A DNA stretch of 54,782 nt. It comes from Maridesulfovibrio ferrireducens (GTDB lineage: Bacteria > Desulfobacterota > Desulfovibrionia > Desulfovibrionales > Desulfovibrionaceae). A model generated the notes under the pieces. That model was not told the DNA's origin. It searched no databases and was given only the letters and a program-made list of their open reading frames with translations. The position numbers and the translations under genes are program-made. The first letter of the stretch is position 1, and every line of letters begins with the position of its first letter. Positions 20,429 to 39,396 of this stretch are shown piece after piece. The stretch is taken from assembly GCF_016342405.1 (NCBI RefSeq), contig NZ_JAEINN010000019.1, positions 1 through 54,782 on the forward strand. Direction: 5' to 3'.

Positions 20429-20436
20429 GGTATTTA

Positions 20437-21890: not shown

Positions 21891-21929
21891 GTGACACACA
21901 CACCTACTATTGTGAGACAAAACGACACA
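21891..21929 (+). promoter_or_regulatory. Upstream activator sites of the mop operon
   Basis: GTGACACAC starts at 21891 and CAAAACGACACA at 21918, 27 bp apart. Exactly the same 9-mer and 12-mer with the same 27-bp spacing occur before the alcohol dehydrogenase gene (39185 and 39212). In both places the sigma-54 element follows 196-197 bp downstream. They look like paired binding sites for the NtrC-type regulator encoded at 37822. Confidence 0.75.
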
Positions 21930-21950
21930 CACCTCCTTAACATCAGTATT

Positions 21951-21968
21951 TATGTGTGCTTTCACATA
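21951..21968. promoter_or_regulatory. Inverted repeat TATGTG-N6-CACATA
   Basis: A perfect 6-bp dyad with a six-base spacer between the activator sites and the sigma-54 promoter of the mop operon. It resembles, but differs at one base per arm from, the TATGTC-N6-GACATA operators. A possible weak or related site. Apart from the regulatory elements listed, the gene-free stretch 21872-22359 shows no coding sequence I can support. Confidence 0.35.
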
Positions 21969-22085
21969 TTAACTTCATTATAATAACAAATATTACCGAC
22001 TTACAACTTCATTTCTATTCATAAAACGATCCACATTCCCACCCACCCCATCATATAACATATTAAAATATAACCAATATTTTTT

Positions 22086-22101
22086 TGGACCTTTTTTTGC
22101 T
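22086..22101 (+). promoter_or_regulatory. Sigma-54 promoter of the mop operon
   Basis: TGGACC, then five T, then TTGCT. The invariant GG (22087-22088) and GC (22099-22100) have the required ten-base spacing. It matches the consensus TGGCAC-N5-TTGCW except for two bases in the -24 hexamer. It lies 196 bp downstream of the first activator site, giving a leader of about 250 bases before the MoeA-like gene. Confidence 0.7.
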
Positions 22102-22219
22102 TAGAGAATCTCTTAATGAGCACATAAAAGAAGTGCCAAGGTGAACTGTTACTAGATTTACGGATATAAAAGATAGAGCACTGAACTGCATTTCTTTCAT
22201 ATCTGCTAGAACTAACAGC

Positions 22220-22250
22220 TTGACTTATTATGTCCATATAGACATATAAA
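22220..22250 (+). promoter_or_regulatory. Second promoter with dif-like operator before the MoeA-like gene
   Basis: A -35 TTGACT (22220-22225) and a possible -10 TATAAA (22245-22250, spacing 19) flank TATGTC-CATATA-GACATA (from 22230). This is the core of the long palindrome at the fdh operon promoter, again with a six-base spacer. The layout suggests a housekeeping promoter that is repressed in step with the fdh operon, in addition to the sigma-54 promoter upstream. Confidence 0.55.
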
Positions 22251-22359
22251 TTCTAGTTATAACAACACAATTCACCTGAAAGATCACTATTTTGAGATTT
22301 TGTGCTCATACAAACGGTGCATATAATAAGTATAAAATAAGACTCTGGAGCCACTACTC

Positions 22360-23379
22360 ATGATGAAAACAGTGCCTGTTGAAGATTCCATAGGAAACGT
22401 ACTTTGCCATGATATGACCCGCATTGTTCCGGGAGAATTCAAAGGACCCGCGTTCAAAAAAGGGCATATAATCCGGCAGGAAGACATTCCCGTATTGCTC
22501 GAAATAGGCAAAGAACATGTCTATATTCTTACACTTGAAGAAGGTCAGCTGCATGAAAATGATGCAGCAAGACGCATTGCAAAAGCTGCAGCAGGACCGG
22601 GTATCACTCTTTCCGATATAAGCGAAGGCCGCATTAATATGAAGGCTTCACCGGGCTTGCTTTCTGTTAATGTTGAAGCTCTTGAACGCATTAACTCTAT
22701 TGAAGAAGTCGTGATTGCAACCATGCATAACGGGCTTCAAGTTTCCACACCGCGCGACGTTGCCGGGACACGCGTTGTTCCGTTGATCATCGATGAAAGT
22801 AAAATTATCGAAGTGGAAAAAATCTGTAGAGAATGCGGACCCATTATCAGTGTTAAACCTTTTAGACACCTCAAAGTCGGCATTATCACCACCGGCAGCG
22901 AAGTATACAGCGGACGCATAAAAGATAAATTCGGCCCTGTTATCCGCAAAAAATTTGATGCTCTTAATTCTGAAATACTTTCTCAGACTTTTGTCAGTGA
23001 CGATCCGGAAATGACCCGTGAAGCCATCCTGAAATCCATTGATGACGGCGCACAAATGGTCGTGCTGACAGGCGGAATGAGCGTCGACCCCGACGATCAA
23101 ACTCCTTCAAGTATCCGCTCAACCGGAGCTGAAATAATCACATACGGTTCTCCAACTTTTCCCGGTGTCATGTTCATGCTGGCATACCTGAACGGTGTCC
23201 CTATTGTCGGGCTGCCCGGTTGCGTGATGTACTACCGGGCCAGCATTTTCGATCTTGTCGTGCCGCGAATTGTCGCTGGCGAACGTCCTACACGAAAGGA
23301 AATTGCAGCTCTCGGGCACGGCGGATTCTGCGCCGGATGTGACACTTGCCACTACCCGCTTTGCTCCTTTGGTAAATAG
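22360..23379 (+). CDS. MoeA-like molybdopterin-binding protein with C-terminal cysteine tail
   Basis: A 339-residue paralogue of the C-terminal part of the FmdE-MoeA fusion at 13954: shared CHDMTRIVPGEFKGP opening, MoaB/Mog-type binding core (GIITTGSEVYSG, TGGMSVDPDDQTP), and the same tail CAGCDTCHYPLCSFGK with four cysteines at identical spacing. It lacks the FmdE domain and zinc ribbon. First gene of the mop operon, it probably handles the molybdenum cofactor for the aldehyde oxidoreductase encoded next. An ATG three bases on is an alternative start; GGAG is nine bases before the first. Confidence 0.85.
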   Translation: MMKTVPVEDSIGNVLCHDMTRIVPGEFKGPAFKKGHIIRQEDIPVLLEIGKEHVYILTLEEGQLHENDAARRIAKAAAGPGITLSDISEGRINMKASPGLLSVNVEALERINSIEEVVIATMHNGLQVSTPRDVAGTRVVPLIIDESKIIEVEKICRECGPIISVKPFRHLKVGIITTGSEVYSGRIKDKFGPVIRKKFDALNSEILSQTFVSDDPEMTREAILKSIDDGAQMVVLTGGMSVDPDDQTPSSIRSTGAEIITYGSPTFPGVMFMLAYLNGVPIVGLPGCVMYYRASIFDLVVPRIVAGERPTRKEIAALGHGGFCAGCDTCHYPLCSFGK

Positions 23380-23447
23380 CAAATTGACGTCTGTTTCAGA
23401 CGCCTAATTATATTAAAACAGCAATAATTTTAAGGAGGCTACTTCGT

Positions 23448-26171
23448 ATGATCAAAAGAACTCTCAAAGTTAACGGCGTAGAACGCGTAGTTATCGTAGA
23501 AAAAGATACTGCGCTTGCTACTGTTTTGCGCGAAAGCTTAGGTCTTACCAGTGTTAAAATCGGTTGCGGAACCGGACAATGCGGTAGTTGCTCTGTCATC
23601 GTAGGCGGAAAACTGAAACGCACATGTACCCTTAAAATGACTAGGGTTGAAGATTACACCGAAATAATCACTCTCGAAGGAATCGGTACTCCACAGCATC
23701 TGCATCCAATCCAGATTGCATGGATGGCACACGGTGGGGCTCAGTGCGGATTTTGTACACCGGGCTTTATCGTCTCAACTTATGCTTTGATTCTGTCCAA
23801 CCCTTCTCCAAGCCGTGAAGATATTCGTGACTGGTTCCAGAAACATCGCAACGCCTGCCGTTGTACAGGTTACAAACAGCTTGTTGATGCAACCATGGAC
23901 GCAGCAGCAGTTATGCGCGGCGACATGAAGATTGACGAATTACTATTCAAGATGCCTGAAGACGGTCGCATCTGGGGTTCCAAATATCCACGCCCAACAG
24001 CAATCGCAAAAGTTACCGGAACACTTGATTACGGCGCAGACCTCGGCCTTAAAATGCCTGAAGGCACTCTCAAATGTGCTCTGGTACAAGCAGAAGTTTC
24101 TCATGCAAATATAATTTCCATCGACACCAGCGAAGCTGAAAAGATGGAAGGCGTGGTAAAAGTTGTTACTCATAAAGATGTTAAGGGTAAAAACCTCATT
24201 ACCGGCCTGATCACTTTCCCCACCAACAAAGGTGACGGATGGGACAGACCTATTCTCGCTGAAAAGAAAATCTTCCAGTTCGGTGATGCAATTGCAATTG
24301 TTTGTGCAGATACCGAAAAGCACGCAAAAGCCGCTGCTGAAAAAGTTGTAGTAAAACTGGAACAGCTGCCTGAATACATGAGTGCTCCTGCGGCTATGGC
24401 TGATGATGCTATCGAAATTCACCCCGGCACTCCTAATATTTACTTTGAGCAGAAAGTTGCCAAAGGTGAAGAATCTGCACCTATTTTCGATAAAGCAGAT
24501 GCTGTTATTGAAGATAGTTTCTACGTCTCACGTCAGCCGCATATGCCTATCGAACCTGATGTAGGTTTCGCTTACCTTGATGACGACGGTAAACTTTGCA
24601 TTCATTCCAAATCAATCGGCCTGCATCTGCATGCTGCCATGATTGCTCCGGGTATGGGAATCGAAGTTGAAAACCTCATCATGGTTCAGAACTTTGCAGG
24701 TGGTACCTTCGGTTACAAATTCAGCCCGACTATGGAAGCACTTGTAGGTGTTGCATGTCTTGCTACCGGTAAACCTGTCTTCTTGAACTACACATGGTTC
24801 CAGCAGCAGACTTACACAGGCAAACGTTCACCATTCTTCACAACCGTACGTCTGGCTGCCGATAAAGGCGGTAAACTTCTTTCCATGGAAACCGACTGGA
24901 TATGTGACCACGGTCCTTACTCAGAATTCGGTGATTTACTGACCCTTCGTGGCGCTCAGTTCATCGGTGCAGGTTACAACATTGATTCCATTCGCGGTGA
25001 AGGTCGCACAGTTTGCACCAACCATGCATGGGGTTCTGCTTTCCGTGGATACGGTTCAACAGAAGTTGAGTTTGCATCCGAAGTTCTGATGGATGAACTG
25101 GCTGAAAAATTAAATATGGACCCATTCGATCTTCGCTACAAAAACATTTACCGCGAAGGTTCTACAACTCCGACAGGACAGACTCCTGACGTTCTGAGTC
25201 TGGAAAAAATATTCGACACAGCTCGTCCTCATTACGAAGCAGCCAAAAAACGTGTTGCAGCTAAATCGACTGACGCAATCAAGCACGGCGTAGGTATCGC
25301 ACTCGGCGTTTACGGATCAGGTCTTGATGGACCGGACTCCGCAGAATCTGAAATTGAACTTAACGAAGACGGCACTGTAACCATGTATGCCTGCTGGCAC
25401 GATCATGGTCAGGGTGCTGACATGGGTGTGCTCGGAACAGCACATGAAGCTCTTCGTCCACTGAAACTTGCTCCTGAAGAAATCAAACTGGTCATGAACG
25501 ACACCCGCACCTGCCCTAACGGCGGCCCAGCCGGTGGTAGCCGTTCACAGGTTGTTGTCGGTAACTCCATTATCGCTGCATGTAGAGCGTTAATGGACAG
25601 CATGCGTAAGGCTGACGGAAGCTTCCGTTCTTACGACGACATGCGCAAAGAAAACAAAGCTCTCCGCTACAGCGGTGTATGGACTGCCCCTTGTACTGAA
25701 TGTGATGCAAACGGTCAGGGTAACCCATTCGCATGTTACATGTACGGATTATTTATCATGGAAGTAGCTGTTGAACTCGCAACGGGTAAAACTACCGTTG
25801 AGAAAGCAACTTTCGTGGCCGATATCGGTAAAATCAACAACAAACTCGTTGTTGACGGTCAGATGTACGGCGGGATTGCTCAGGGTATCGGACTTGCTCT
25901 CAGCGAAGACTATGAAGATATCAAAAAGCATTCTACCATGGTCGGCGCAGGTTTCCCTTACATCAAGCAGATCCCGGACGATATGGAACTTATCTATATT
26001 GAAACACCACGCCCTGAAGGCTCACATGGAGCATCAGGAACCGGCGAACTCCCTCTGACTTGTCCTCATGGTGCTATCATCAATGCGATCTACAACGCAT
26101 CAGGCGCACGCATTACCAAACTTCCAGCTCTGCCTGAAAAGATTCTCGCAGCACTGAAAGCTAAAGCTTAA
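23448..26171 (+). CDS. mop: Aldehyde oxidoreductase Mop (molybdopterin cytosine dinucleotide enzyme)
   Basis: A 907-residue xanthine-oxidase-family enzyme oxidising aldehydes to carboxylic acids. The N-terminal plant-ferredoxin-type [2Fe-2S] cluster uses Cys40, 45, 48 and 60; the second uses Cys100, 103, 137 and 139. These are the same numbers as in the D. gigas enzyme, which also has 907 residues. The molybdenum domains follow, with GGTFGYKFSP and the C-terminal GASGTGELPL, whose Glu is the presumed catalytic base (Glu869 in D. gigas). There is no FAD domain, as expected. The ribosome site is AAGGAGG. Codon use looks biased as for an abundant protein. A strong terminator directly after it sets it apart from the genes behind. 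Confidence 0.97.
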   Translation: MIKRTLKVNGVERVVIVEKDTALATVLRESLGLTSVKIGCGTGQCGSCSVIVGGKLKRTCTLKMTRVEDYTEIITLEGIGTPQHLHPIQIAWMAHGGAQCGFCTPGFIVSTYALILSNPSPSREDIRDWFQKHRNACRCTGYKQLVDATMDAAAVMRGDMKIDELLFKMPEDGRIWGSKYPRPTAIAKVTGTLDYGADLGLKMPEGTLKCALVQAEVSHANIISIDTSEAEKMEGVVKVVTHKDVKGKNLITGLITFPTNKGDGWDRPILAEKKIFQFGDAIAIVCADTEKHAKAAAEKVVVKLEQLPEYMSAPAAMADDAIEIHPGTPNIYFEQKVAKGEESAPIFDKADAVIEDSFYVSRQPHMPIEPDVGFAYLDDDGKLCIHSKSIGLHLHAAMIAPGMGIEVENLIMVQNFAGGTFGYKFSPTMEALVGVACLATGKPVFLNYTWFQQQTYTGKRSPFFTTVRLAADKGGKLLSMETDWICDHGPYSEFGDLLTLRGAQFIGAGYNIDSIRGEGRTVCTNHAWGSAFRGYGSTEVEFASEVLMDELAEKLNMDPFDLRYKNIYREGSTTPTGQTPDVLSLEKIFDTARPHYEAAKKRVAAKSTDAIKHGVGIALGVYGSGLDGPDSAESEIELNEDGTVTMYACWHDHGQGADMGVLGTAHEALRPLKLAPEEIKLVMNDTRTCPNGGPAGGSRSQVVVGNSIIAACRALMDSMRKADGSFRSYDDMRKENKALRYSGVWTAPCTECDANGQGNPFACYMYGLFIMEVAVELATGKTTVEKATFVADIGKINNKLVVDGQMYGGIAQGIGLALSEDYEDIKKHSTMVGAGFPYIKQIPDDMELIYIETPRPEGSHGASGTGELPLTCPHGAIINAIYNASGARITKLPALPEKILAALKAKA

Positions 26172-26180
26172 TATATAACA

Positions 26181-26244: not shown

Positions 26245-28524
26245 ATGGAACAAGGCTCACTTCACGAATGGGAAGCCAAATGTATTCAGGAAGAACCTCC
26301 CCGTTGCAAAGCAGCCTGTCCGCTTCACGTGGACGGACGGGAATTCTGTAAACTTCTCGCAGCCGGACAAACGGACAAAGCGTGGGCGGTCCTCTGCCGC
26401 ACTCTTCCGTTTCCTGCTATAACTGCGCGCATCTGTGATGCCCCCTGTAAAAAAGCCTGCCTCCGTGAAGAAGTCGGCGGCGGTATAGAAATGGATAGTC
26501 TGGAAAGATTTTGCGCAGAAAACGCAAAACGTACTCCCCCTTTCAGACCTCTGCCCTCCCGTGGAAAAACAGTTGCTGTTCTCGGAGGATTTCTACCCGG
26601 CCTTGCCGCGGCTTGGGATCTTGCCAAAAAAGGATTCACTGTCACAGTTTTTTTGAACAATATTTATGAAGCATTCGAAACACTGCCTCATAAATCGTTG
26701 AGCATAGAAATTTTCAAACAGGAAATCGAAGTCATCAAAAAAATGGGCGTAACTTTTATTGAAAACAGTACGCCAGACGAAAAAATCGCCGAAGAATGTC
26801 TCCAAAATTTCGATGCGGTATTTTCAGACCCGCTATCTTGTTGCGCTGAAAAGCTAAAAATAAAAGCACCTTCCGCTACAACTCTTGAGACTGAAAAAAA
26901 TGGACTATTTGCGGCTTCAATGCCTGAGAACGAAACCTCGCCAGTCGCACTCATAGCCATCGGTCGCAAAGGAGCTTTATCCATTGAACGGTTCATGCAG
27001 AATGCGTCTCTCTCAGCCGGACGTGAACGCGAAGAACCTTTTGAAACCAGACTCTATACGAATATCAGCAAAGTAGAACCGCTTGCCCCCGTTACTATTT
27101 CAGAAGCAGGTTACACCCCCGAATCAGCACACGAGGAAGCTTCCCGCTGTCTGCTTTGCGAATGTATGGAATGTGTAAAAAACTGCGCCTATCTCGAAAA
27201 TTTCAAGGGCTATCCTAAAGTTTTTGCCCGCCAGATATATAACAATGCTTCCATTGTAATGGGTACACGCAGAGCTAACAATCTCATTAATTCATGCATG
27301 CTCTGCGATTTGTGTACAGAAATATGCCCCGAAAATTTCTCCATGAAGAATCTTTGTATAGAAGCCCGGCAGGATTTGGTTGAAAAGGGGCATATGCCGC
27401 CTTCTGCTCATGAATTTGCCCTGCGGGATATGGAATTTGCCGACAGTGAAACTTGCACTATCAACAGACATCAAGCCGGATTTGAACAAAGCGAATGGGC
27501 TTTTTTCCCCGGTTGTCAGTTGCCTGCGTCAGATCCGAATGCAGTCAAAAAGGTTTATGAATTTCTCTGCAACTCCTTAACGGGAGGAACAGGGCTTATG
27601 CTCCGCTGTTGTGCTGCTCCTGCGGACTGGTCCGGACGCATTGAACTTTTCAATAAAAAAGCAACTGAGTTGCAAACGGACTGGGAATCATTAGGAAAAC
27701 CTAAACTAATCGCGGCCTGCCCTTCGTGTCAGGAAACCCTGCACAAAGCCATTCCAGAAGCTGAAATAACATCATTATGGTCTGTGCTCTTCCAGCATCG
27801 TAAAAAATTAAACCCAGTTATACCGGACACAATTCCGGCATTGCAAGATCCTTGCACAGCGCGGCACAACGATAAACTCCTGACGGATGTGCGCGTCCTG
27901 CTTTCAGATTTAGGCATTGAATTCACTGAACCGGAACTTTCAGGCCTTCATACAGAATGTTGCGGTTTCGGAGGATTACTCAGCAATGCCAACGAACCTT
28001 TATCGAAAACAGTAGCGGAACGCCGGGCTTCAAAGTTGAACGGAGACGGCATTACGTATTGCGCCATGTGTCGTGATCTACTTGCAAAAAGCGGAAAACG
28101 CTGTCTTCACATATTAGATGTAATTTTCCCGCCAGAAAACCTCGATCCTGCGGCACGCACCGTACCCCAATACTCTGAGCGCCGCGAAAATCGAGTCAGG
28201 CTTAAGGAGCAGATGCTGGATGTAATCTGGAAGAAACCGTCTGCTCCTCGCCCTGACTTTGAATCTATTGCTTTATCTTTCACTGAAGAAGCTAAAAAGC
28301 TTATGGAAGAACGCCGCATCCTTATTTCTGACATTCAAAAGACTATTAATGCTGTGCAAAAATCAGGGCAAGAACTCGAAAATACCGAGACAGGACACAA
28401 ACTGGTATATTACAGACCAGTCACAGTCACTTACTGGGTTGAACACGAAAAAACAGGTGAAAACAGTTACTTAATCCACAAAGTATGGAGTCACCGCATG
28501 CGCATACTCGGAGGTCGTAAATGA
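26245..28524 (+). CDS. Fe-S oxidoreductase with GltD-like N-terminus and HdrB-like CCG domains
   Basis: A 759-residue cytoplasmic electron-transfer protein. The N-terminus copies the GltD-type cluster region (RCKAACPLH, CDAPCKKAC) and starts a dinucleotide fold. However, the glycine motif reads LGGFLPGLAAAW, with Phe in place of the central Gly, and most of the flavin domain is missing. Two ferredoxin-type clusters follow (CLLCECMECVKNC; CMLCDLCTEICPE). Then come HdrB/GlpC-like CCG motifs (CCAAPADW, CPSC, ECCGFGG, CAMC) and a unique 130-residue tail. It resembles the proteins called pyridine nucleotide-disulfide oxidoreductase/dicluster-binding next to Mop in Desulfovibrio. A likely redox partner of Mop or of the maturation pathway. 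Confidence 0.8.
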   Translation: MEQGSLHEWEAKCIQEEPPRCKAACPLHVDGREFCKLLAAGQTDKAWAVLCRTLPFPAITARICDAPCKKACLREEVGGGIEMDSLERFCAENAKRTPPFRPLPSRGKTVAVLGGFLPGLAAAWDLAKKGFTVTVFLNNIYEAFETLPHKSLSIEIFKQEIEVIKKMGVTFIENSTPDEKIAEECLQNFDAVFSDPLSCCAEKLKIKAPSATTLETEKNGLFAASMPENETSPVALIAIGRKGALSIERFMQNASLSAGREREEPFETRLYTNISKVEPLAPVTISEAGYTPESAHEEASRCLLCECMECVKNCAYLENFKGYPKVFARQIYNNASIVMGTRRANNLINSCMLCDLCTEICPENFSMKNLCIEARQDLVEKGHMPPSAHEFALRDMEFADSETCTINRHQAGFEQSEWAFFPGCQLPASDPNAVKKVYEFLCNSLTGGTGLMLRCCAAPADWSGRIELFNKKATELQTDWESLGKPKLIAACPSCQETLHKAIPEAEITSLWSVLFQHRKKLNPVIPDTIPALQDPCTARHNDKLLTDVRVLLSDLGIEFTEPELSGLHTECCGFGGLLSNANEPLSKTVAERRASKLNGDGITYCAMCRDLLAKSGKRCLHILDVIFPPENLDPAARTVPQYSERRENRVRLKEQMLDVIWKKPSAPRPDFESIALSFTEEAKKLMEERRILISDIQKTINAVQKSGQELENTETGHKLVYYRPVTVTYWVEHEKTGENSYLIHKVWSHRMRILGGRK

Positions 28525-28736
28525 GCACCTTAAAAGTCCTTGATGATGATTTTTCTTCATGGAAATGCTCAGCATGTGGAAAAAATCTTGAGCCTGCACC
28601 TGTTGAACTTGAATACCTTGAAAGCAGGTTCACTGTTGAGCTTCCGTCCTGCCCTGCGTGCGGACTGGTTCTTATTCCCGAAGACCTTGCTCTGGGGAAA
28701 ATGGCGGAAGTGGAGAGTCTTCTGGAGGACAAATAA
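28521..28736 (+). CDS. Small double-CxxC protein, DVU_1557-type
   Basis: A 71-residue protein with two CxxC knuckles, WKCSACGKN (about 16-19) and SCPACGLV (about 44-47), likely binding zinc or iron like a rubredoxin-type fold. Its ATG overlaps the stop of the preceding oxidoreductase gene (ATGA). The size, motif and neighbours match the family named after D. vulgaris DVU_1557 (redox protein), from memory. It could shuttle electrons between the large Fe-S protein and its neighbours. Confidence 0.8.
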   Translation: MSTLKVLDDDFSSWKCSACGKNLEPAPVELEYLESRFTVELPSCPACGLVLIPEDLALGKMAEVESLLEDK

Positions 28737-28738
28737 AA

Positions 28739-29410
28739 ATGACTCAACATGAGCGATCAATTCCTTTATGGGAGAAATCTACTCTTAAAAATGCAGCGGG
28801 AAACACATTACGCCCCGGAGGGTTAGCCCTCACAGATCGGGCTTTATCTCTGGCGAATATTCCGCGGTACAGTAGAGTGCTTGATGTTGGCTGTGGTCTT
28901 GGTGCAACAGTTCAACATCTGAATGAATCTCATTCTTTTGAAGCATATGGCATAGACTGTTCAACCAGACAGCTGGAAAAAGCACCCTCAGGGCTAGCTC
29001 TTTCACAAGCGGATGCTACGAACCTCCCTTATGCAAACAGATCCTTTGATACTTTAATTTGTGAATGTGTACTTTCACTTTTACCAGATATTTACCTAGC
29101 ATTAGCTGAATTTAAGCGAGTCCTTACTCCATCCGGAACACTTATTATAACTGATATTTATCAGCGAGGACAAACCAGTTCAAGTTGCATCTCAGATTCA
29201 TGTGCAACTAACCCCATTAATGTGCGACAGTTAAACAATACTCTTAATGAACTTGGGTTTCATACAACAGTTCAAGAAGATCATTCCAAAATGCTTGTAG
29301 AGCTTGCGGCGCGACTCATTTTCACAGGAGAAAAGTCCATTATTCCTAAAGAGAGTTGTTGCGAGAAGCCCGGCTATATGCTGCTCATTGCCAAATTGAA
29401 CGAACTCTAA
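28739..29410 (+). CDS. SAM-dependent methyltransferase, DVU_1556-type
   Basis: A 223-residue class I methyltransferase. The SAM-binding motif is LDVGCGLGATVQHL (about 47-60), with the acidic residue in YGIDCSTRQLEKA and the post motif FDTLICECVLSLLPD. Cysteine clusters near the C-terminus (SCISDSCATN, ESCCEKPGY) are unusual for a plain methyltransferase and hint at a metal or sulfur substrate. I start at the ATG at 28739; the frame is open upstream only through the preceding gene. It belongs to the row of genes following Mop; the substrate is unknown. Confidence 0.82.
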   Translation: MTQHERSIPLWEKSTLKNAAGNTLRPGGLALTDRALSLANIPRYSRVLDVGCGLGATVQHLNESHSFEAYGIDCSTRQLEKAPSGLALSQADATNLPYANRSFDTLICECVLSLLPDIYLALAEFKRVLTPSGTLIITDIYQRGQTSSSCISDSCATNPINVRQLNNTLNELGFHTTVQEDHSKMLVELAARLIFTGEKSIIPKESCCEKPGYMLLIAKLNEL

Positions 29411-29428
29411 TTACGGAGATTTTTTCAT

Positions 29429-31247: not shown

Positions 31248-32553
31248 CAATCCCCTTGAGTGCTGGCTTAATCTGCGCATGGGACGGCGACTTGATTCCG
31301 GAGGAGTTTCCCCCGAGGAATTACGCGAGTGGCAATTTGAACTTTTACGCAAAACCATAAAACATGCCGCAACATCTTCACAGTTTTATTCAAAACATTT
31401 AAGCAACATAGTCCCCGATGAAATTCGTACTCCTGCGGATTTAAGCGCATTGCCTTTCACTATGCCCAGTGACCTGAGAAACAGTCCAAACAGTTTTTTA
31501 TGTGTATCTCAAGACGAGATTGCACGCGCCATAACTATTTCAAGTTCAGGATCAAGCGGTGATCCTAAGCGGCTTTTTTTTACAACCGGAGATTTAGAAC
31601 GCACTATTGAATTCTTTCATTACGGCATGGGACCATTAGTAGGGAAGGGAGAAACAGTTCTTGCTCTGCTCCCGGATTCGCGGCCCGGCGGAGTTGGAAA
31701 TCTTTTCTCTGAAAGTATCTCAAGACTCGGAGCAAAGACTGTTTATCCAGAAGACCCTTCTGATATACCTGCTCTTCTGAATTTACTCTTGAATTCACGT
31801 GCGACTTGTATTTTAGGCCCGGCAATACATATTCACGCACTGTCCCGCCTTTGGAAAAGTAAGCGACTCCCTAAAAATCAAGTCCGCTCGGCCCTGCTGT
31901 GCTGGGATGTTTTGCCAAGTGTTACAATTCAAACCATCTCAAACACATTCGGTTGTGAAATTTTTTCTCACTGGGGCATGACTGAAACATGTCTCGGCGG
32001 CGCAGTTGAATGTTTTCAAGATTCCGGCATGCACCTGCGTGAACCGGATTTTTATGTCGAGATAGTTGACCCTGCCACCGGACAACCTGTGCCCGACGGA
32101 ACCAGCGGAGAGATTCTGTTTACAACTCTCTCAAGACGGGCGATGCCTCTTATAAGATATAAAACAGGTGATATCGGACAAATAGTTTCGGGGCCATGCT
32201 CATGCGGTCTTTCCATGCGCAGACTGACCGGTGTAACAGGCAGGTTAAACGGAGATATCCGCTTACCTACCTCCGAACAATTATCGCTTTCAGAACTTAA
32301 CGAAATAATCCTGCAATTTGTCGGTGTGCTGGATTTTAAAGTCAGCTTTCAACAACACCCGCCTAGTCTCAACATTGCTCTGGACATTTCTCCTGAAGCT
32401 AAGATTCCATCAGATCTTTCTAAATCCATAATTTCTTATCCAAAGCTCAACCGGGCAATTGTCGAAAATGATTTGAAAATCAATATTGAAATTGATAACC
32501 ATAATGGGTGTATCAGTTCAGGGTTTGGAAAAAGATTAATAACATCGGCTTAA
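31240..32553 (+). CDS. AMP-dependent CoA ligase-like enzyme, DVU_1553-type
   Basis: A 437-residue adenylate-forming enzyme of the phenylacetate-CoA ligase branch. It shows the phosphate loop SSSGSSGDPKR (about 96-106), SHWGMTETCLGG in the middle, and YKTGDIGQI before the hinge. A lysine in GFGKRL near the C-terminus could be the A10 lysine. GAGGA precedes the ATG at 31240, which overlaps the radical SAM stop. Either it activates a carboxylate such as the acid product of aldehyde oxidation, or it adenylates a cofactor intermediate. Its place inside the maturation genes favours the latter, but both remain open. Confidence 0.82.
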   Translation: MINNPLECWLNLRMGRRLDSGGVSPEELREWQFELLRKTIKHAATSSQFYSKHLSNIVPDEIRTPADLSALPFTMPSDLRNSPNSFLCVSQDEIARAITISSSGSSGDPKRLFFTTGDLERTIEFFHYGMGPLVGKGETVLALLPDSRPGGVGNLFSESISRLGAKTVYPEDPSDIPALLNLLLNSRATCILGPAIHIHALSRLWKSKRLPKNQVRSALLCWDVLPSVTIQTISNTFGCEIFSHWGMTETCLGGAVECFQDSGMHLREPDFYVEIVDPATGQPVPDGTSGEILFTTLSRRAMPLIRYKTGDIGQIVSGPCSCGLSMRRLTGVTGRLNGDIRLPTSEQLSLSELNEIILQFVGVLDFKVSFQQHPPSLNIALDISPEAKIPSDLSKSIISYPKLNRAIVENDLKINIEIDNHNGCISSGFGKRLITSA

Positions 32554-32577
32554 ATAAGCCATAAAGGTCAGCCTCTA

Positions 32578-33624
32578 ATGAAAAAACTCGTTCATAATAT
32601 CCGTTTACAGTTGGAATCCGGCAATGATCTCATTCTTGCAAGCATTGTTGAAAGTACAGGCTCCACGCCCCGTTCATCCGGCAGTAAAATGGCTGTTCGC
32701 CGTGACGGCAAAATTGACGGAACAATAGGCGGGGGACTGGTTGAAGCTCTTGTTCAACGTGCAGCAGCAAAACTTTTTGATACCCAGAACATAGCTGTCT
32801 CTTTTAAAGAATTTGACCTCTCAAATACTCTTGCCGCAAACGCTGACATGATTTGCGGAGGACATGTAACAGTTATGATGGAACATCTCTATGCGGATAA
32901 AGAGACAACTGACATATTCATTAAATTTGATAACAGCCTTAAGCTCGGACAAAAGGTTACCATTCTCTCACTCATGGACAACGAAGAAAACTCCGCCACT
33001 TCAAGTAGAATGCTACTAACCCAAAATCAGGCAACCCCCGCAGTACAAGGATTCTCCGAAAAAAGTATTTCTGAACTGCAAGCTGCATCCCTGAAAAAAG
33101 ACACCCCCATCATTCAAGACAATCACAATCAACGCCTTATTGCAGAAAGTTTTACTCCACAGCCCAGTCTTTTTATTTTCGGAGCCGGGCATGTTTCCCG
33201 CCCAACCGCAGCACTGGCAACTTCTGTAAATTTCAGAACCGTCGTCCTTGATGACCGCATCGACTTTGCTAATATTGAACGCTTTCCAGAAGCGGACGAA
33301 ATTGAGGTGCTTCCTAACTTTAACAACGCATTTGCAAATCTGGAAGTAACCGAAGATTCATATATTATTATTGTTACACGCGGACATCTACACGATAAAA
33401 CAGTGCTGGCACAGGCTCTGAAAACTCCCGCCTGCTACGTAGGAATGATCGGCAGTTCCAAAAAACGCAATGCCATTTACGACGCATTGCTTGAGGAAGG
33501 AGTCACACAAACGAGCATAGATCGCTGCCATTGCCCAATCGGCCTTGGTATCGGGGCGCAGACTCCTGAAGAAATAGCTGTCAGCATTGTTGCAGAACTG
33601 ATCAAAAAACGGGCCGGGGATTGA
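32578..33624 (+). CDS. XdhC/CoxI family molybdenum cofactor maturation protein
   Basis: A 348-residue protein with the CoxI N-terminal domain (GSTPRSSGSKMAV, DGTIGGGLVEA) and the XdhC C-terminal Rossmann domain (FIFGAGHVSRPTAA, VTRGHLHDKTVL, YVGMIGSSKKR). Family members bind the molybdenum cofactor, support its sulfuration and insert it into xanthine-oxidase-family enzymes. Here the client should be Mop. Its stop lies two bases before the chosen ATG of the cytidylyltransferase gene, fitting cooperation in making and loading molybdopterin cytosine dinucleotide. Confidence 0.92.
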   Translation: MKKLVHNIRLQLESGNDLILASIVESTGSTPRSSGSKMAVRRDGKIDGTIGGGLVEALVQRAAAKLFDTQNIAVSFKEFDLSNTLAANADMICGGHVTVMMEHLYADKETTDIFIKFDNSLKLGQKVTILSLMDNEENSATSSRMLLTQNQATPAVQGFSEKSISELQAASLKKDTPIIQDNHNQRLIAESFTPQPSLFIFGAGHVSRPTAALATSVNFRTVVLDDRIDFANIERFPEADEIEVLPNFNNAFANLEVTEDSYIIIVTRGHLHDKTVLAQALKTPACYVGMIGSSKKRNAIYDALLEEGVTQTSIDRCHCPIGLGIGAQTPEEIAVSIVAELIKKRAGD

Positions 33625-33626
33625 AA

Positions 33627-34808
33627 ATGAAAATTTATGGGCTGGTTCTTGCTGCCGGGCTTTCCTCGCGTATGGGAAAGCTCAAGGCCACGCTACCTCT
33701 GGAAGAAGGAACTGTACTCTCAAACTGCATCCGTTCCTTGCTTGACGGAGGAGTTGCTGATGTTTTTGTAGTTACAGGACACAAAACAGAGGAAATTGAA
33801 CCCGAAGTTCATAAACTCGGAATGCACGCAGTATATAATCCGGATTATGAAAACGGTATGTTTTCTTCTGTCATTGCAGGGGTAAAAGCTCTACCCGATG
33901 ATGTTTCAGCCTTTTTGGTGCTGCCGGTAGACATCCCGCTTATACGGTCCTCAACAGTACGCGCTTTGACCTTCGAATTTAAAGATTCTCCATCTGATAT
34001 TATTTATCCTGTATTTAAAGAGGAAAGAGGACACCCTCCGCTCATAAATGCAAAACTTATCCCTGAAATTCTCCTACATGACGGAACTGGAGGTCTTCGC
34101 AAAGTCCTTGAAAAACATGATTCAAGAGCCAGAAACAAAAACATGCCTGATCTCGGTATTCTGCATGATCTGGATACACCGGAAGATTACACTACTGCTC
34201 TCAAGTTTTCCCGCAACAAGCGGTTCCCCCTCCCCGAAGAGTGTGAATCTCTCTGGGAACTGGCCGAAACACCGCGAACCACACAGGAGCACTGTAAAGC
34301 TGTTGCTAAAGCAGCCTGCACTATGGCGAAAGCTCTTAATTCTGCCCGTAAAGAAGGTCCGTTATTAGATATGAATATAGTGCAAAGTGCTGCGCTGATG
34401 CATGATGTTGCCAAAATTCGCAAGAATCATGAAGCGAGGGGAGGCACTCTTCTAGCCGGATACGGTTTTACAGGCATCTCCGATATCGTAGCCTCGCATC
34501 GTGATACAAAAATAGATCCGACCTCTCCGTTAACGGAAAAAGAAATAGTATTTCTGGCGGACAAGCTTTTCGAAGGAAGCACATTGGTAACTATTAAGGA
34601 ACGGTATGGAAAAAGAATCAGCAAATGGACAAATGATCCCGATGCGCTCAAAGCTATCCATGGCCGCCTTAAACGAGCAGAAAATTTATTGACTCGATAT
34701 GAAAATGAAGCAGGAATTAAAACATCTGAACTTCTGGCAAGTTCCGCTCACAGCCCTTTAAACTCTGCGACCTTTATGCAAGAAAATAACATCAAGGCGC
34801 AATTATGA
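33627..34808 (+). CDS. MocA-like nucleotidyltransferase fused to an HD domain, DVU_1551-type
   Basis: A 393-residue fusion. Residues 1-190 are a MocA/MobA-type nucleotidyltransferase (LVLAAGLSSRMGKLKATLPL, then LPVDIPLI), expected to attach CMP to molybdopterin and form the cytosine dinucleotide cofactor used by Mop. From about 215, an HD-type phosphohydrolase domain follows (EHCKAVAKAA, LMHDVAKI, SHRD). The HD part could cleave a nucleotide by-product or regulate the pathway. An in-frame TTG six bases upstream is an alternative start. The stop overlaps the next start by four bases. Confidence 0.88.
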   Translation: MKIYGLVLAAGLSSRMGKLKATLPLEEGTVLSNCIRSLLDGGVADVFVVTGHKTEEIEPEVHKLGMHAVYNPDYENGMFSSVIAGVKALPDDVSAFLVLPVDIPLIRSSTVRALTFEFKDSPSDIIYPVFKEERGHPPLINAKLIPEILLHDGTGGLRKVLEKHDSRARNKNMPDLGILHDLDTPEDYTTALKFSRNKRFPLPEECESLWELAETPRTTQEHCKAVAKAACTMAKALNSARKEGPLLDMNIVQSAALMHDVAKIRKNHEARGGTLLAGYGFTGISDIVASHRDTKIDPTSPLTEKEIVFLADKLFEGSTLVTIKERYGKRISKWTNDPDALKAIHGRLKRAENLLTRYENEAGIKTSELLASSAHSPLNSATFMQENNIKAQL

Positions 34809-35407
34809 TTATACTCGTCCGTCATGGTGAAGCTGAAAAAGCCGGGGGACGAGCCATCGGACAAACGGATCTTCCGCTTTCAGAAAATGGACGCAATCAA
34901 GCGAATCATCTAGCTGAATATCTAAGCGATGTGCCGTTTGAACATCTCTATACAAGTCCCCTTCTGCGAACACGCGAAACTGCGGCTGAAATTGAAAAAA
35001 CCTGCACTCCAAAAGTTGTCCTCTGTCCTGAATTTGCTGAAATAAATCTCGGAGACTGGGACGGACTCAGTTTTAAACAGATTAAAAATGAATTTCCAAA
35101 TGAGTATATTAAACGCGGACAGGATCTTGCAAACTACCGCCCTCCTAACGGGGAAAGTTTTGCTGATCTAAAAAAACGAGTTCAAAGCGGCCTAAAAAAA
35201 ATCATCGACCTTGACAGTCCGGTCGTTATCGTTACTCATGCCGGAGTGATTCGGACCATGCTTCATATCGCATTAGAATTTCCTCTAAACAATATTTTTA
35301 AGATATCTCCCCTCCATTGTTACACCACTGTTTTGAAAAAAAATCCCGCAGGATTAACTCTTGAAAACTTCAATATCCCCCCGGACAGAACTCAGCGTCC
35401 AGCTTGA
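34805..35407 (+). CDS. Histidine phosphatase family protein
   Basis: A 200-residue phosphatase of the phosphoglycerate mutase-like superfamily. It has RHGEAE at the N-terminus, SPLLRTRETA for phosphate binding, and VTHAGVIRTM with the second catalytic His. It is closest in style to CobC-type cofactor phosphatases. Its ATG overlaps the preceding stop (ATGA), and it is the last gene of the mop operon. It may remove a phosphate from a cofactor intermediate. No terminator is visible after it, so readthrough into the alcohol dehydrogenase gene is possible. Confidence 0.85.
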   Translation: MIILVRHGEAEKAGGRAIGQTDLPLSENGRNQANHLAEYLSDVPFEHLYTSPLLRTRETAAEIEKTCTPKVVLCPEFAEINLGDWDGLSFKQIKNEFPNEYIKRGQDLANYRPPNGESFADLKKRVQSGLKKIIDLDSPVVIVTHAGVIRTMLHIALEFPLNNIFKISPLHCYTTVLKKNPAGLTLENFNIPPDRTQRPA

Positions 35408-35432: not shown

Positions 35433-35487
35433 AAAAAAAACATTATTTCAAAAATAGTCCAGCAATACTGAGCAACAAGGAGTCTTT

Positions 35488-36630
35488 GTGCAGATAACTA
35501 AATTCGCCATACCGGAGATAATATTCGGCAACGGCAGTATCAAGTACCTTGCTTCATGTGCGCAGCGCCTTGGCGCAAAAAGGGTTTTACTAGTCAGTGA
35601 TAAGGGGCTTGAAGCTTCGGGCTGGGTTCAAAAAATCCTTAATATTCTCAAAGAAGCAAATATGGAATGTGCCTATTTTAATGACCTTACCGCCAACCCC
35701 CGGGACTGTCAGGTCCATCAGGGTGCAAAGATGTATCTGGAGCACAAGGCCGATGTAATTATCGGACTTGGGGGTGGAAGTCCCATCGACGCAGCAAAAG
35801 GTATTGCCACCATAGTCAGCAATGGCGGTAAAATAAGCGATTATGAAGGTGCTAACCGCATAAGCCGTCCTCTGCCGCCCATGATTTTTATCCCTACCAC
35901 TGCCGGAAGCGGATCAGATGTTTCACAGTACGCAATTATCACAGATAAAGAACGACAAGTAAAAATGGCCATCATCAGCCGTTCTCTGGTACCCAATATT
36001 TCAATCATCGACCCGGATCTGCTCGTTACAAAATCACGTAAATTAATTCTAGCCTCAGCTATTGACGCACTTGCCCACGCCATTGAGTCATATGTTTCGA
36101 GACTTGCTTCCCCTTTTACTGAATCCCAAGCCTTAAATGCTATTAAGCTGATTGCAGAAAACCTCAACCCTGCGGCAAATAACAAAGACCCTGAAGCTCT
36201 GAGAAATCTGGCTATTGCAAGCACTGCGGCGGGTATGTCCTTCAGTAATGCAGGACTTGGCGTAGGGCATGCTTTGGCACACTCACTTGGCGGACGCTAT
36301 GATGTTATGCACGGCATGACACTGCCGATACTGCTTCCGGCTGTAATACGCTTCAACATCCCCAGCTGTAGAAATAAAATGGCTGTAATTGCCCGTACGA
36401 TTAACGACGCACATATCTACTCTACTGAGATAGAGGCTGAGCAGGTATGCGACACATTGCAACAAATGTTTGAAGAACTGGACATCCCCATGCGACTGCG
36501 CGACCTCCTTCCTGATGACTCTCATATGGAAGAAATATGTCATATGGCTGTTCAGGATGCCTGTGCTGTTCCCAACCCCAGAAAAGCCGACTGGCGCGAC
36601 CTGCTCGGCATCTGCATCGAGGCATGGTAA
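35488..36630 (+). CDS. Iron-containing alcohol dehydrogenase (regulator-linked copy)
   Basis: A 380-residue group III alcohol dehydrogenase. It has the NAD-binding GLGGGSPIDAAKG (about 92-104) and metal ligands in DALAHAIES and GVGHALAHSLGGRYDVMHG. It starts at GTG with AAGGAG upstream. It overlaps the histidine kinase gene (TAATG), so it is produced in a fixed ratio with the two-component pair. Such coupling suggests modest expression and perhaps production of the aldehyde signal that the system senses. It is distinct from the adh at 39467, with different motif residues throughout. Confidence 0.9.
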   Translation: MQITKFAIPEIIFGNGSIKYLASCAQRLGAKRVLLVSDKGLEASGWVQKILNILKEANMECAYFNDLTANPRDCQVHQGAKMYLEHKADVIIGLGGGSPIDAAKGIATIVSNGGKISDYEGANRISRPLPPMIFIPTTAGSGSDVSQYAIITDKERQVKMAIISRSLVPNISIIDPDLLVTKSRKLILASAIDALAHAIESYVSRLASPFTESQALNAIKLIAENLNPAANNKDPEALRNLAIASTAAGMSFSNAGLGVGHALAHSLGGRYDVMHGMTLPILLPAVIRFNIPSCRNKMAVIARTINDAHIYSTEIEAEQVCDTLQQMFEELDIPMRLRDLLPDDSHMEEICHMAVQDACAVPNPRKADWRDLLGICIEAW

Positions 36631-37814
36631 TGAGCAACAACACTTCACTTCTCGACCTCATAGGAATCGAGCATAATAAGCTTAATTTCTTTCAGGAATT
36701 GCAAAATAATATTCAGGAACTCACGACTCTGAATCTTCAATCAGAAGACCAGCGGCGTGAAATTGCAGCAATTCTTGACGGCATAACAGACGTAATGATG
36801 GTTCTTTCTGAAAAATTGGAAATCATCTCGGTCAACCATGTTTTTGAACAGCTTTTTCCCGGCATCAATCCTATAGGTAAAACATGCTACAGCCTGTTTA
36901 GAAATGTCGATCATCCGTGTTCTGAATGTCCGGCTTTCCGGGCTCTTTCCACCAACTCTGTGTGTAAAGAAACAGCCATATTCCGTATCGACAACAAAAA
37001 CATGCAGTTTGACATGGTAGCCTCGCCGCTAAAAAACCCTGATCTTACTGAAAACCGCATTCTCATTTTCAAACGCGATGTAACTTTAGAAAAAGAGTAT
37101 CAAGCTAAATTTTATCAAGCAGAAAAAATGGCGACTATCGGGGTGCTGGCCGCAGGAGTTGCTCACGAAATAAATAACCCTATGGCCGCTGTAGCCGGAT
37201 TTGCAGAAGGAATTCAGCGTAGACTGGCTAGACTGGATGACTCGGTACCGGAAGAGTTGGCAGAAGATCTTAACGACTACACAAACACTATCTTAAAAGA
37301 ATGCCTGCGCTGTCAGGATATCGTAAAAACGCTGCTTTCCTTCAGCCGTCCCATTGCCGCAGATTTTCTTCCCGTTGACTTTAATCAAGTGGCAAAAGAC
37401 ACGTTAAGATTGCTGGATCATCAATTTCGCAAAAGAAAAAACATCCACTTGATAATAGAATTGACCTCCCCTTTATCTCATATATATGGAGACGAAGCTC
37501 AACTTAAGCAGGTCATACTGAATCTCATGACCAACGCTATCGATGCGGTAGGAGAATCCGGCGAGATCCATGTTAAAACCTTTACAGAGAATAACCAAGT
37601 AGGACTGAAAGTCAGCGACTCAGGGTGCGGCATTCCTCCGGAAAATAAAGATATGCTTTTCGAACCGTTTTTTACGACTAAATCCGTCGGACACGGAATA
37701 GGCATAGGGTTATCTACCTGCTACAATATCGTAAGTGAACACAAAGGTGAAATCATCGTGGACAGCAGCCCAGGCAAAGGGTCCTGCTTCACAGTACTCC
37801 TTCCAATTCAGTGA
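36630..37814 (+). CDS. PAS-domain sensor histidine kinase, soluble
   Basis: A 394-residue kinase without signal peptide or membrane segments, so it senses inside the cell. A PAS domain (about 45-160) contains four cysteines (KTCYSLFRNVDHPCSECP), suggesting a metal, Fe-S or redox sensor. The phosphoacceptor is in GVLAAGVAHEINNPMAAVAG, followed by the ATPase boxes NLMTNAIDAV, DSGCGIPPE and GIGIGLSTC. The start at 36630 overlaps the adh stop. It pairs with the response regulator seven bases downstream. Confidence 0.93.
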   Translation: MSNNTSLLDLIGIEHNKLNFFQELQNNIQELTTLNLQSEDQRREIAAILDGITDVMMVLSEKLEIISVNHVFEQLFPGINPIGKTCYSLFRNVDHPCSECPAFRALSTNSVCKETAIFRIDNKNMQFDMVASPLKNPDLTENRILIFKRDVTLEKEYQAKFYQAEKMATIGVLAAGVAHEINNPMAAVAGFAEGIQRRLARLDDSVPEELAEDLNDYTNTILKECLRCQDIVKTLLSFSRPIAADFLPVDFNQVAKDTLRLLDHQFRKRKNIHLIIELTSPLSHIYGDEAQLKQVILNLMTNAIDAVGESGEIHVKTFTENNQVGLKVSDSGCGIPPENKDMLFEPFFTTKSVGHGIGIGLSTCYNIVSEHKGEIIVDSSPGKGSCFTVLLPIQ

Positions 37815-37821
37815 GATAATA

Positions 37822-39165
37822 ATAATGCCGGAATCATATAAAATTCTTGTTATAGATGACGAAGAATCCATATTGAAACTACTTAGTAAGGAACTGGCAA
37901 GCCCTGAACGGATTCTCCATACTGCAAACTGCGCTGAAGCCGCCAGAGAGCAGATACGAAAAAACCGCTACGACGTAATCATTTCTGATATAAGACTACC
38001 TGACGGAAACGGGCTTGAACTTCTTACCGAATTCAAGGACATCGAGCCGGATGGTGAAGTCATACTCATCACCGGGCATGGCAACATTGATAACGCAGTG
38101 GAAGCAATCCGCATAGGCGCATACGACTACATAACCAAGCCTTTCAGGCTCGATAGAGTGGAGCTGGTAGTCGAACGGGCATGGCAAAGAGTCTGCCTGC
38201 AACGAGAAAACCGCAGCTATAAACATTCTCAAAACGATACAGCCAGCACACAGCTTATCGGAAAAGCCAGTTCGATAAAACATATTCACCATCTGATCAG
38301 CAAAGTAGCTCCAACGGAAGTTCCTGTCCTTATCACGGGAGATTCAGGGGCAGGTAAAGATGTTGTTGCACGCAGTATTCATACGGCAAGCGGTCGTTCC
38401 GGCAAACCTCTCATAGTAAAAAACTGCGCAACCCTGCAAAAAGAACTCGCACGCAGTGAACTTTTCGGACATACACGCGGTTCATTTACCGGAGCCATGG
38501 AAAACAGTGACGGGCTTATGACGTTTGCTCATACCGGGACTCTTTTTCTGGATGAAATAGGTGAACTGCCGATGGAAGTCCAAGCTTCCCTACTGCGCGT
38601 GCTGGAATCACATACTTTCCGCAGAGTCGGAGAAAAAGACGAACGCACTGTGGATATACGCTTTCTTTTCGCCACAAACCGTAACCTTGCGCAGGAAGTT
38701 GAAGCCGGAAGATTTCATGAAGCTCTCTTTCATCGCATCAATGTATTCAATATTAATCTGCCGCCCCTTAAAGACAGGCGGGAAGATGTGCCACTGCTCG
38801 TAGATTTTTTCCTTAGAAAACTTGGTCAGCAAATGGGGCAAGGTGAATACACTGTGAGCGAACGGGCCATGCAGTGCATGCTTTCCTACTATTGGCCGGG
38901 TAATGTCCGTGAACTCAGAAACGTTCTTGAGCGAAGTATTATCCTATCCGATAATTACGTAATTACCTGCAACTGCCTTCCCCGCGAAATTGCAGATCAG
39001 CCGGAAAGGGATAGCGAAACAGGAATACTCTCATTAGAACGCATGGAGCGGGAACATATTATCAAAGCTATTGATTTCTTTAGCGGTAACAAACTTAAGG
39101 CTGCCGAAGCTTTGGGAATCGGACGTAAAACTCTGTACCGCAAAATTGATAAGTATAATCTTTAG
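37822..39165 (+). CDS. NtrC-family sigma-54 response regulator
   Basis: A 447-residue activator with a receiver domain (LVIDDEES, phospho-acceptor in ISDIRLPDG), an AAA+ domain and a Fis-type HTH (LKAAEALGIGRKTLYRKI). The AAA+ part has Walker A GDSGAGKD and Walker B LFLDEIGE. Its sigma-54 loop reads GSFTGA instead of the usual GAFTGA. It should be phosphorylated by the kinase encoded just upstream. Matching paired sites and sigma-54 promoters before the mop operon and before the adh at 39467 are its likely targets. The start at 37822 is the ATG after the kinase stop. Confidence 0.94.
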   Translation: MMPESYKILVIDDEESILKLLSKELASPERILHTANCAEAAREQIRKNRYDVIISDIRLPDGNGLELLTEFKDIEPDGEVILITGHGNIDNAVEAIRIGAYDYITKPFRLDRVELVVERAWQRVCLQRENRSYKHSQNDTASTQLIGKASSIKHIHHLISKVAPTEVPVLITGDSGAGKDVVARSIHTASGRSGKPLIVKNCATLQKELARSELFGHTRGSFTGAMENSDGLMTFAHTGTLFLDEIGELPMEVQASLLRVLESHTFRRVGEKDERTVDIRFLFATNRNLAQEVEAGRFHEALFHRINVFNINLPPLKDRREDVPLLVDFFLRKLGQQMGQGEYTVSERAMQCMLSYYWPGNVRELRNVLERSIILSDNYVITCNCLPREIADQPERDSETGILSLERMEREHIIKAIDFFSGNKLKAAEALGIGRKTLYRKIDKYNL

Positions 39166-39184
39166 TTTGACAAGACCTCCGCGT

Positions 39185-39223
39185 GTGACACACTACCCTC
39201 ATATTCTGTAGCAAAACGACACA
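39185..39223 (+). promoter_or_regulatory. Upstream activator sites of the second adh
   Basis: GTGACACAC (39185-39193) and CAAAACGACACA (39212-39223) have the same spacing as at the mop operon. They begin 20 bp after the stop of the response regulator gene. The gene-free stretch 39166-39466 holds only these sites, a pair of palindromes and the sigma-54 promoter. Confidence 0.75.
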
Positions 39224-39227
39224 GTAG

Positions 39228-39259
39228 CTCGCGAGTGCATATTCTATATACCTCGCGAG
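39228..39259. promoter_or_regulatory. Pair of CTCGCGAG palindromes
   Basis: Two exact copies of the 8-bp palindrome CTCGCGAG start 24 bp apart between the activator sites and the sigma-54 promoter of adh. They may bind a second regulator as a pair or fold as a stem; neither copy occurs at the mop promoter. Confidence 0.5.
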
Positions 39260-39380
39260 ATTCACTTCATTCATTTTTTCTAAAAAAACGGACCACATCC
39301 CTGATGTCCGAAGCGAATACAGATCCATTCACGACCTCCCTCGAACCACATAACTGTCTAGAATAAAAGGGTTTATACTT

Positions 39381-39396
39381 TGGCACTCTTATTGCT
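39381..39396 (+). promoter_or_regulatory. Sigma-54 promoter of the second adh
   Basis: TGGCAC-TCTTA-TTGCT is an exact match to the -24/-12 consensus, with GG and GC ten bases apart. It lies 70 bp upstream of the start codon. Confidence 0.92.

Follow-up and report, generated by a model that had tools for sequence, protein, structure and literature searches.

The closest described system to the one reported here is the DVU2394 regulon of Desulfovibrio vulgaris Hildenborough. DNA-affinity-purified chip (DAP-chip) analysis puts DVU2394 on the adh-hdr operon DVU2405-2397, at a direct-repeat site that was traced further only to D. vulgaris Miyazaki (Rajeev 2011, PMC3333781), and a later study gives its target as DVU2405-DVU2399 and its loop as GSFTGA, a sequence also present in DVU3220 (2 of 37 regulators) (Kazakov 2015, PMC4641369). 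DVU2405 is reported to be abundant in D. vulgaris, and a 2024 proteome of this organism lists it (Adh1) with DVU1559 (Aor) under ethanol metabolism, while DVU2396 appears there as an iron-containing alcohol dehydrogenase (Fe-ADH) of low count. For D. alaskensis, the aldehyde step was assigned to an aldehyde:ferredoxin oxidoreductase (Price 2014). Here we analyze a stretch of 54,782 nucleotides from Maridesulfovibrio ferrireducens (assembly GCF_016342405.1, contig NZ_JAEINN010000019.1, positions 1 to 54,782; the whole stretch is termed the window), in which one sigma-54 promoter precedes the operon of a molybdopterin-dependent aldehyde oxidoreductase (Mop), a second one precedes a Fe-ADH gene (adh), and both carry the same pair of putative activator sites.

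Mop has long been studied in Desulfovibrio gigas. NtrC-type regulators bind upstream of their promoters as dimers, form AAA+ rings, and open the sigma-54 polymerase. We propose, from sequence comparisons, that both promoters of the window belong to one sigma-54 regulon driven by the NtrC-type response regulator encoded between them, and we put the probability of this reading at about 0.86.

Results

Two sigma-54 promoters share a pair of words

The initial annotation had described two words repeated with the same geometry at both promoters, and each position proved exact when the window was read again. The 9-mer GTGACACAC has exact copies at 21891 and 39185 and the 12-mer CAAAACGACACA at 21918 and 39212, i.e. 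27 bp past each 9-mer. The GG of a sigma-54 element lies 196 bp after the first word at the Mop promoter (22087, in TTGGACCTTTTTTTGCTT) and 197 bp after it at the adh promoter (39382, in TTGGCACTCTTATTGCTA). Both elements have the GG-N10-GC form of sigma-54 promoters; compared with TGGCAC-N5-TTGC, the adh element shows no mismatch and the Mop element two, making the latter the weaker. The claimed sigma-54 elements are thus present, at unequal strength.

The gene assignments were likewise upheld, with Mop identified by NF045668 (1659.6 bits) downstream of one promoter and a Fe-ADH downstream of the other. Domain matches place an NtrC-type activator and its PAS kinase between them, and the activator combines a receiver, a sigma-54 AAA+ domain with a GAFTGA-type loop (GSFTGA), and a Fis-type helix-turn-helix (HTH); its ATG is at 37825 rather than at 37822, the start first given.

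A search of the genome (4,200,019 bases) for the exact pair with a gap of 10-30 bp, proposed along with the initial annotation, returned 2 matches, namely the two copies in the window, both near sigma-54 elements, and 0 for the reversed pattern. Taken singly, the words show no excess over chance in the window: CAAAACGACACA with at most 2 mismatches gave 5 matches (6.2 expected) and GTGACACAC with at most 1 mismatch gave 6 (6.1 expected). The evidence therefore resides in the pairing of the words, their position, and their conservation.

The words belong to a site of fixed architecture

An alignment of the promoters, together with distant relatives, identifies the two words as the conserved right halves of two tandem dyads, TGKGTC-N5-GACMCA. 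The idea of a shared activator site therefore stood, but not as two simple sites, the words being parts of two dyads. The dyad centers are 31-32 bp apart and the left dyad begins ~205 bp upstream of the GG. Both halves of the left dyad are intact in relatives such as L054, L056, and L057; in the genus the left halves are worn. With any spacing of 18-45 bp allowed, 31 or 32 bp, approximately three helical turns, was picked by 57 of the 68 promoters that scored at least 18/24 (83 rows scored). In an unconstrained scoring of the promoters, the upstream regions L059, L062, L069 (adh), L071, and L073 were swapped for the longer L193, L194, L201, L195, and L196, and the dyads or the sigma-54 element were misplaced in several Mop promoters (L010, L011, L014, and L021), which a geometry-constrained count recovers. 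The term layout denotes below a sigma-54 element plus two dyads in register scoring at least 16/24, a threshold that was chosen after inspection, with a consensus partly built from the scored sequences. In a shuffling test, 70 of 73 real promoters reach 16, against 1.1% of 7300 shuffled promoters, none of which reaches 18.

Minus-strand matches to the integration host factor (IHF) consensus (at least 7/9) numbered 13 at 30-32 bp before the GG in 15 Mop promoters of the genus (about 1.0 per three-base bin on average), and 12 at 30-32 bp in 17 adh promoters of the genus (bin mean ~0.45). Outside the genus, 42 adh promoters gave 25 such matches at 31-33 bp (bin mean ~1.4); the expectation in each case is the mean over all offsets. 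A GATNCA element, 58-61 bp ahead of the GG, was seen only in promoters of the genus. The distances from the right dyad to the GG group near 162, 173, and 184, and the nominal Rayleigh p of 7.5e-4 at 10.5 bp (33 non-independent values, three periods tried) is at most suggestive of helical phasing. IHF sites lying, like these putative ones, between enhancer and sigma-54 element occur in the orp operons of D. vulgaris; the orp enhancers are at -131 and -88 from the start (PMC3897727), whereas the window dyads lie ~160-215 bp before the GG, a spacing kept in most of the genera sampled.

Conservation in the genus

The regulator is present in all 17 genomes of the genus: the window has its own copy, 15 others are 85-99% identical to it, and that of G001 is 63% identical, while next-best matches in these genomes are at most 42% identical. 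All 16 other loci read retain the order alcohol dehydrogenase-kinase-regulator, and the Mop cluster adjoins this trio in 13 of them, one (L012) being cut by a contig end. L008 and L016 lack the cluster at this position, and the contig of L022 (G001) starts 466 bases ahead of the alcohol dehydrogenase gene.

A relaxed form of the pair pattern gave 28 matches in 16 of the 17 genomes and 0 for the reversed control. Sixteen lie ahead of adh and 12 ahead of the Mop operon; wide occurrence of the pair before unrelated genes, named at the outset as the outcome that would speak against a common regulon, was thus not encountered, all 28 matches in the 17 genomes preceding mop or adh. A single letter each kept the Mop sites of G003, G011, G014, and G016 from matching this pattern. 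The Mop operons of G003 and G011 are at other genomic locations and still have the sites at the same distance from the sigma-54 element. Scored one per genome, the layout was found at 15 of 16 Mop promoters and 17 of 17 adh promoters, and it is visible by eye at the Mop promoter of G007, outside the scored set. The sigma-54 element of the genus Mop promoters is conserved and of the TTGGACC type.

With up to 3 mismatches, fixed-gap patterns matched other places at a near-control rate (44 versus 26 for the reversed control, summed from the tabulated counts). With 0-2 mismatches, six sites were found apart from adh and mop: one in G000 with its counterpart in G002, which overlies an opposite-strand reading frame, and four ahead of one type of transporter (G003, G004, G008, and G016). 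None of the nine off-target loci (these six plus three with 3 mismatches) has a sigma-54 element scoring at least 13 within 400 bp, and they were therefore not counted as regulon members.

In six genomes of the genus (L261, L266, L267, L275, L280, and L284), a tandem site resembling the older form of the activator site, e.g. TGACCCA ... GAGTCAAAATGACACA, lies upstream of a transporter gene whose start is near 1405-1790 in the orientation read. Pfam MFS_1 was matched in the three proteins scanned and the others have similar sequence; no sigma-54 element was found with these tandem sites.

Co-occurrence of layout and regulator outside the genus

In a survey of 199 genomes of the family, the regulator (E up to 1e-120) was found in 75 and a close adh in 106. 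From these hits we chose 43 adh upstream regions with the regulator, the genus being excluded, and 20 without it, i.e. with no match at E 1e-120; one of the 43 (L202) belongs to a second adh gene of G131 and one of the 20 (L192) to a second adh gene of G092. The layout occurs in 38 of the 43 and in 0 of the 20 (Fisher p 3.9e-12 by sequence, the genes of related genomes not being independent); counted by genus, it is 14 of 18 versus 0 of 7 (p 6.9e-4). Genus g21 is mixed, with the layout in 3 of 3 upstream regions with the regulator and 0 of 7 without it (7 upstream regions, 6 genomes). Since consensus and threshold were fixed on part of the data, this contrast is the better test. The layout thus tracks the regulator across genomes, and it is very probably the NtrC-type protein encoded at 37825 that activates the Mop and adh operons.

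The sites could instead belong to another enhancer-binding protein, the neighboring regulator doing something else. The activator sites at both promoters are predicted from sequence, the regulator has 15 further matches in the genome (E up to 1e-60), and several D. vulgaris enhancer-binding proteins have similar motifs with TGT and ACA half-sites, according to the available text of PMC4641369. Against this, the layout is missing from all 20 sampled adh upstream regions of genomes lacking the regulator, including the 7 of the mixed genus in which all 3 with the regulator have it; the next-best paralogue of the regulator is 41% identical; and it is DVU2394 that has been published on the adh operon (PMC3333781). 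We consider this alternative improbable.

Locus L053 (G051) contains tandem adh genes at 17535 and 19113, both equipped with a sigma-54 element and a two-dyad site of their own.

Extent of Mop membership

A MoCF match was found in 164 of the 199 genomes, and the Mop samples outside the genus comprised 21 upstream regions with the regulator (20 genomes) and 20 lacking it. In 38 of the 40 fetched loci, and in G131, mop follows the MoCF gene; of the other two, L216 lies where its contig ends, and in G018 (L246) no mop is seen. The layout was found in 4 of the 21 upstream regions with the regulator (L069, L219, L224, and L227; genera g25, g5, and g24) and in 0 of 20 without it, or 0 of 19 without G018. 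Set against the 38 of 43 for adh, these counts make adh the predicted general target and Mop a member limited to the genus and to a few further lineages. Locus L069 (G131:C1:1059500-1079400) has a second kinase-regulator pair, without an ErcA-like neighbor, at 1.7 kb upstream of a MoCF-mop operon with the layout; on its other side the pair is flanked by an adh gene.

The weaker Mop sigma-54 element and these low counts outside the genus would also agree with adh being the sole working target and the Mop copy a relic or weak site. This appears very unlikely: in the genus the Mop sigma-54 element is conserved, the layout is found at 15 of 16 scored promoters plus that of G007 by eye, and the site is kept where the Mop operon lies elsewhere (G003 and G011). 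That the sites serve a molybdate or tungstate regulator, an idea suggested by Mop being a molybdenum enzyme and by the TOBE/integrase regulator and ATP-binding cassette (ABC) transporter genes just upstream (16432-21108), is scarcely credible and was rejected, as the exact pair is found neither before the transporter genes nor elsewhere in the genome, adh is an iron enzyme of another family, and both copies lie at a similar distance from sigma-54 elements.

An ErcA-like dehydrogenase as candidate sensor

Another alcohol dehydrogenase gene of the window, termed ErcA-like, ends in TAATG, its stop overlapping the kinase ATG, and it adjoins the kinase gene in 16 of 16 further loci of the genus; we infer that the two genes are co-transcribed. 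The protein keeps D193, H197, H261, and H275, invariant in 7 aligned sequences, at positions that we take to bind iron in the Fe-ADH family. In Pseudomonas, the ErcA-ErcS pair (yiaY-PP_2683) has a Fe-ADH gene co-cistronic with that of a histidine kinase and is involved in regulating ethanol oxidation, and ErcA is presumed to make its signal. ErcS is described as a hybrid kinase affecting AgmR and PQQ enzymes, whereas the window encodes a PAS kinase and a sigma-54 activator. With this pair as a model, the ErcA-like dehydrogenase may be the sensor and alcohol the signal.

Two results count against this step. The ErcA-like protein scores 416.9 bits against NCBIfam NF041833 (ErcA), below the cut-off of 550 (the catalytic adh product scores 408.2), and is therefore ErcA-like in setting only. 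Furthermore, in G131 no ErcA-like gene adjoins the kinase-regulator pair on the adh side, making the sensor proposal less secure.

In D. vulgaris, two laboratory-evolution papers list DVU2394, DVU2395, and DVU2396 among the genes mutated in more than one line, group, or population, in the portions available, and one of them classes DVU2395 as general adaptation to laboratory growth or non-specific stress. In our own reading, these recurrent mutations fit a single pathway.

Features of the window

Table 1 Positions of promoter elements and genes in the window.
Feature	Positions	Strand	Remarks
Mop promoter, left dyad	21882..21898	+	TGGCAACTTGTGACACA; right half conserved, left degenerate; contains most of the 9-mer
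Mop promoter, right dyad	21913..21929	+	TGAGACAAAACGACACA; contains the 12-mer
Mop promoter, GATCCA element	22028..22033	+	59 bp before GG; common to adh promoter
Mop promoter, IHF-like match	22056..22068	-	7/9 consensus positions; 31 bp before GG
Mop operon sigma-54 element	22085..22102	+	TTGGACCTTTTTTTGCTT; GG at 22087
MoCF_biosynth protein, Mop operon gene 1	22360..23379	+	domain match
mop, molybdopterin-dependent aldehyde oxidoreductase	23448..26171	+	NF045668, 1659.6 bits, cut-off 1100
Pyridine nucleotide-disulfide oxidoreductase/dicluster-binding protein	26245..28524	+	NF045663; possible Mop electron partner
Remaining Mop cluster	28658..35407	+	methyltransferase, C_GCAxxG protein, radical SAM, DVU_1553-family AMP ligase, XdhC-family maturation factor, MobA-HD protein, histidine phosphatase
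ErcA-like iron-containing alcohol dehydrogenase, proposed sensor	35488..36630	+	stop overlaps kinase ATG
PAS histidine kinase	36630..37814	+	three invariant cysteines
NtrC-type response regulator, proposed activator of both promoters	37825..39165	+	receiver, AAA+ with GSFTGA, Fis-type HTH
adh promoter, left dyad	39176..39192	+	CCTCCGCGTGTGACACA; contains most of the 9-mer
adh promoter, right dyad	39207..39223	+	TGTAGCAAAACGACACA; contains the 12-mer
adh promoter, GATCCA element	39322..39327	+	60 bp before GG
adh promoter, weak IHF-like match	39351..39363	-	6/9; 31 bp before GG
adh sigma-54 element	39380..39397	+	TTGGCACTCTTATTGCTA; GG at 39382
adh, iron-containing alcohol dehydrogenase	39467..40648	+	profile match

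The ErcA-like gene, the GATCCA elements, and the IHF-like matches of Table 1 are additions to the initial annotation. The cysteines of the kinase (C87, C98, and C101 of the aligned sequence) are invariant across 8 aligned related kinases and possibly form a metal or redox site near the PAS domain. Adjoining the Mop operon, a protein combining two TOBE domains with a phage-integrase domain, which we take to be TunR-like, is encoded at 16432-17568 on the minus strand, divergent from molybdate/tungstate-type ABC transporter genes at 17613-21108.

Discussion

The prediction of one regulon for the oxidation of alcohol to aldehyde and on to acid is supported by the 28 of 28 relaxed matches in the genus, by the relocated Mop sites of G003 and G011, and by the contrast between 38 of 43 and 0 of 20 adh upstream regions. 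Several observations weigh against it, besides the threshold chosen after inspection and the low frequency of the layout at Mop operons outside the genus. Five adh upstream regions with the regulator fail the layout (L078, L202, L204, L205, and L206); the regulators in the genomes of L204, L205, and L206 are only 53-57% identical, and L202 is that of a second adh gene. G001 is the exception in the genus: its adh promoter scores 17, having the two dyads in the same place but with different half-site letters, and its Mop operon lacks a sigma-54 element reaching a score of 13. The scoring of the genus adh promoters left out second close adh genes in G012, G013, and G014. In D. vulgaris, DVU2394, the apparent counterpart of the window regulator, has the other targets DVU3298-3305, and its motif accounts for a subset of the hits, according to the available text of PMC3333781.

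The gene arrangement of the DVU2394 regulon recurs in the window, with Fe-ADH, kinase, and regulator adjacent and adh as predicted target; we take DVU2395 to be the kinase of the D. vulgaris locus. By context and not by alignment, the window adh is taken as the counterpart of DVU2405. The order in L062 is adh, then HdrB-, HdrA-, and FlpD-like and other redox genes (hdr/flx-like), the ErcA-like gene, kinase, and regulator, which is the order implied for DVU2405-2394. Among the matches listed in a search of the genome contigs for a DVU2394 relative, identities were 35-43% and none was close. As far as the available text of PMC3333781 and PMC4641369 goes, the two systems share an NtrC-type GSFTGA regulator, a Fe-ADH gene, a sigma-54 promoter, and a repeated site, and DVU2396, two genes away, is a Fe-ADH, as in the window. 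The adh half of the one-regulon claim thus agrees with the published DAP-chip result. The systems differ in that the table of PMC4641369 gives the adh-hdr-flx operon alone as target, whereas hdr-flx does not follow adh in the window, and in that, unlike in the published regulon, the Mop operon, which shares the layout in the window and across the genus, is predicted as a second target. That the DVU2394 motif was traced only to D. vulgaris Miyazaki may be because the letters drift while the layout stays.

Under the single-regulon reading, the ErcA-like dehydrogenase, encoded by a gene that overlaps the kinase gene, would mediate the sensing of an alcohol, and the regulator would be phosphorylated by the kinase. 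Two regulator dimers would sit side by side on one helix face, at dyads three turns apart, IHF would bend the DNA between the dyads and the sigma-54 element, and the AAA+ ring would open the sigma-54 polymerase at the Mop and adh promoters. As output, Adh would produce aldehyde along with reduced cofactor, and the aldehyde would be converted to acid by Mop and its dicluster partner. We tentatively extend this, as a conjecture that is more doubtful than probable, to an inherited unit consisting of a rigid promoter machine (two dyads three turns apart, phased to an IHF bend and a sigma-54 element) with drifting half-site letters, which may have been acquired by operons such as mop and may be driven by an alcohol dehydrogenase sensor reporting alcohol oxidation to the PAS kinase.

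The regulation of adh is already known in D. vulgaris, and its link to the Mop aldehyde enzyme looks new: in the literature searched, supplements apart, no paper was found that places Mop under this regulator, and Mop is not among the DVU2394 targets listed in the available portions. New here are the predicted membership of Mop in the regulon, general in the genus, the fixed architecture of the site, and the ErcA-like dehydrogenase as a possible sensor. For D. vulgaris, this points to DVU2396, the low-count Fe-ADH, as a possible signaling protein. Mop thereby gains a predicted regulator, and the two alcohol-oxidation steps of sulfate reducers, from alcohol to aldehyde and from aldehyde to acid, would be joined under one switch.

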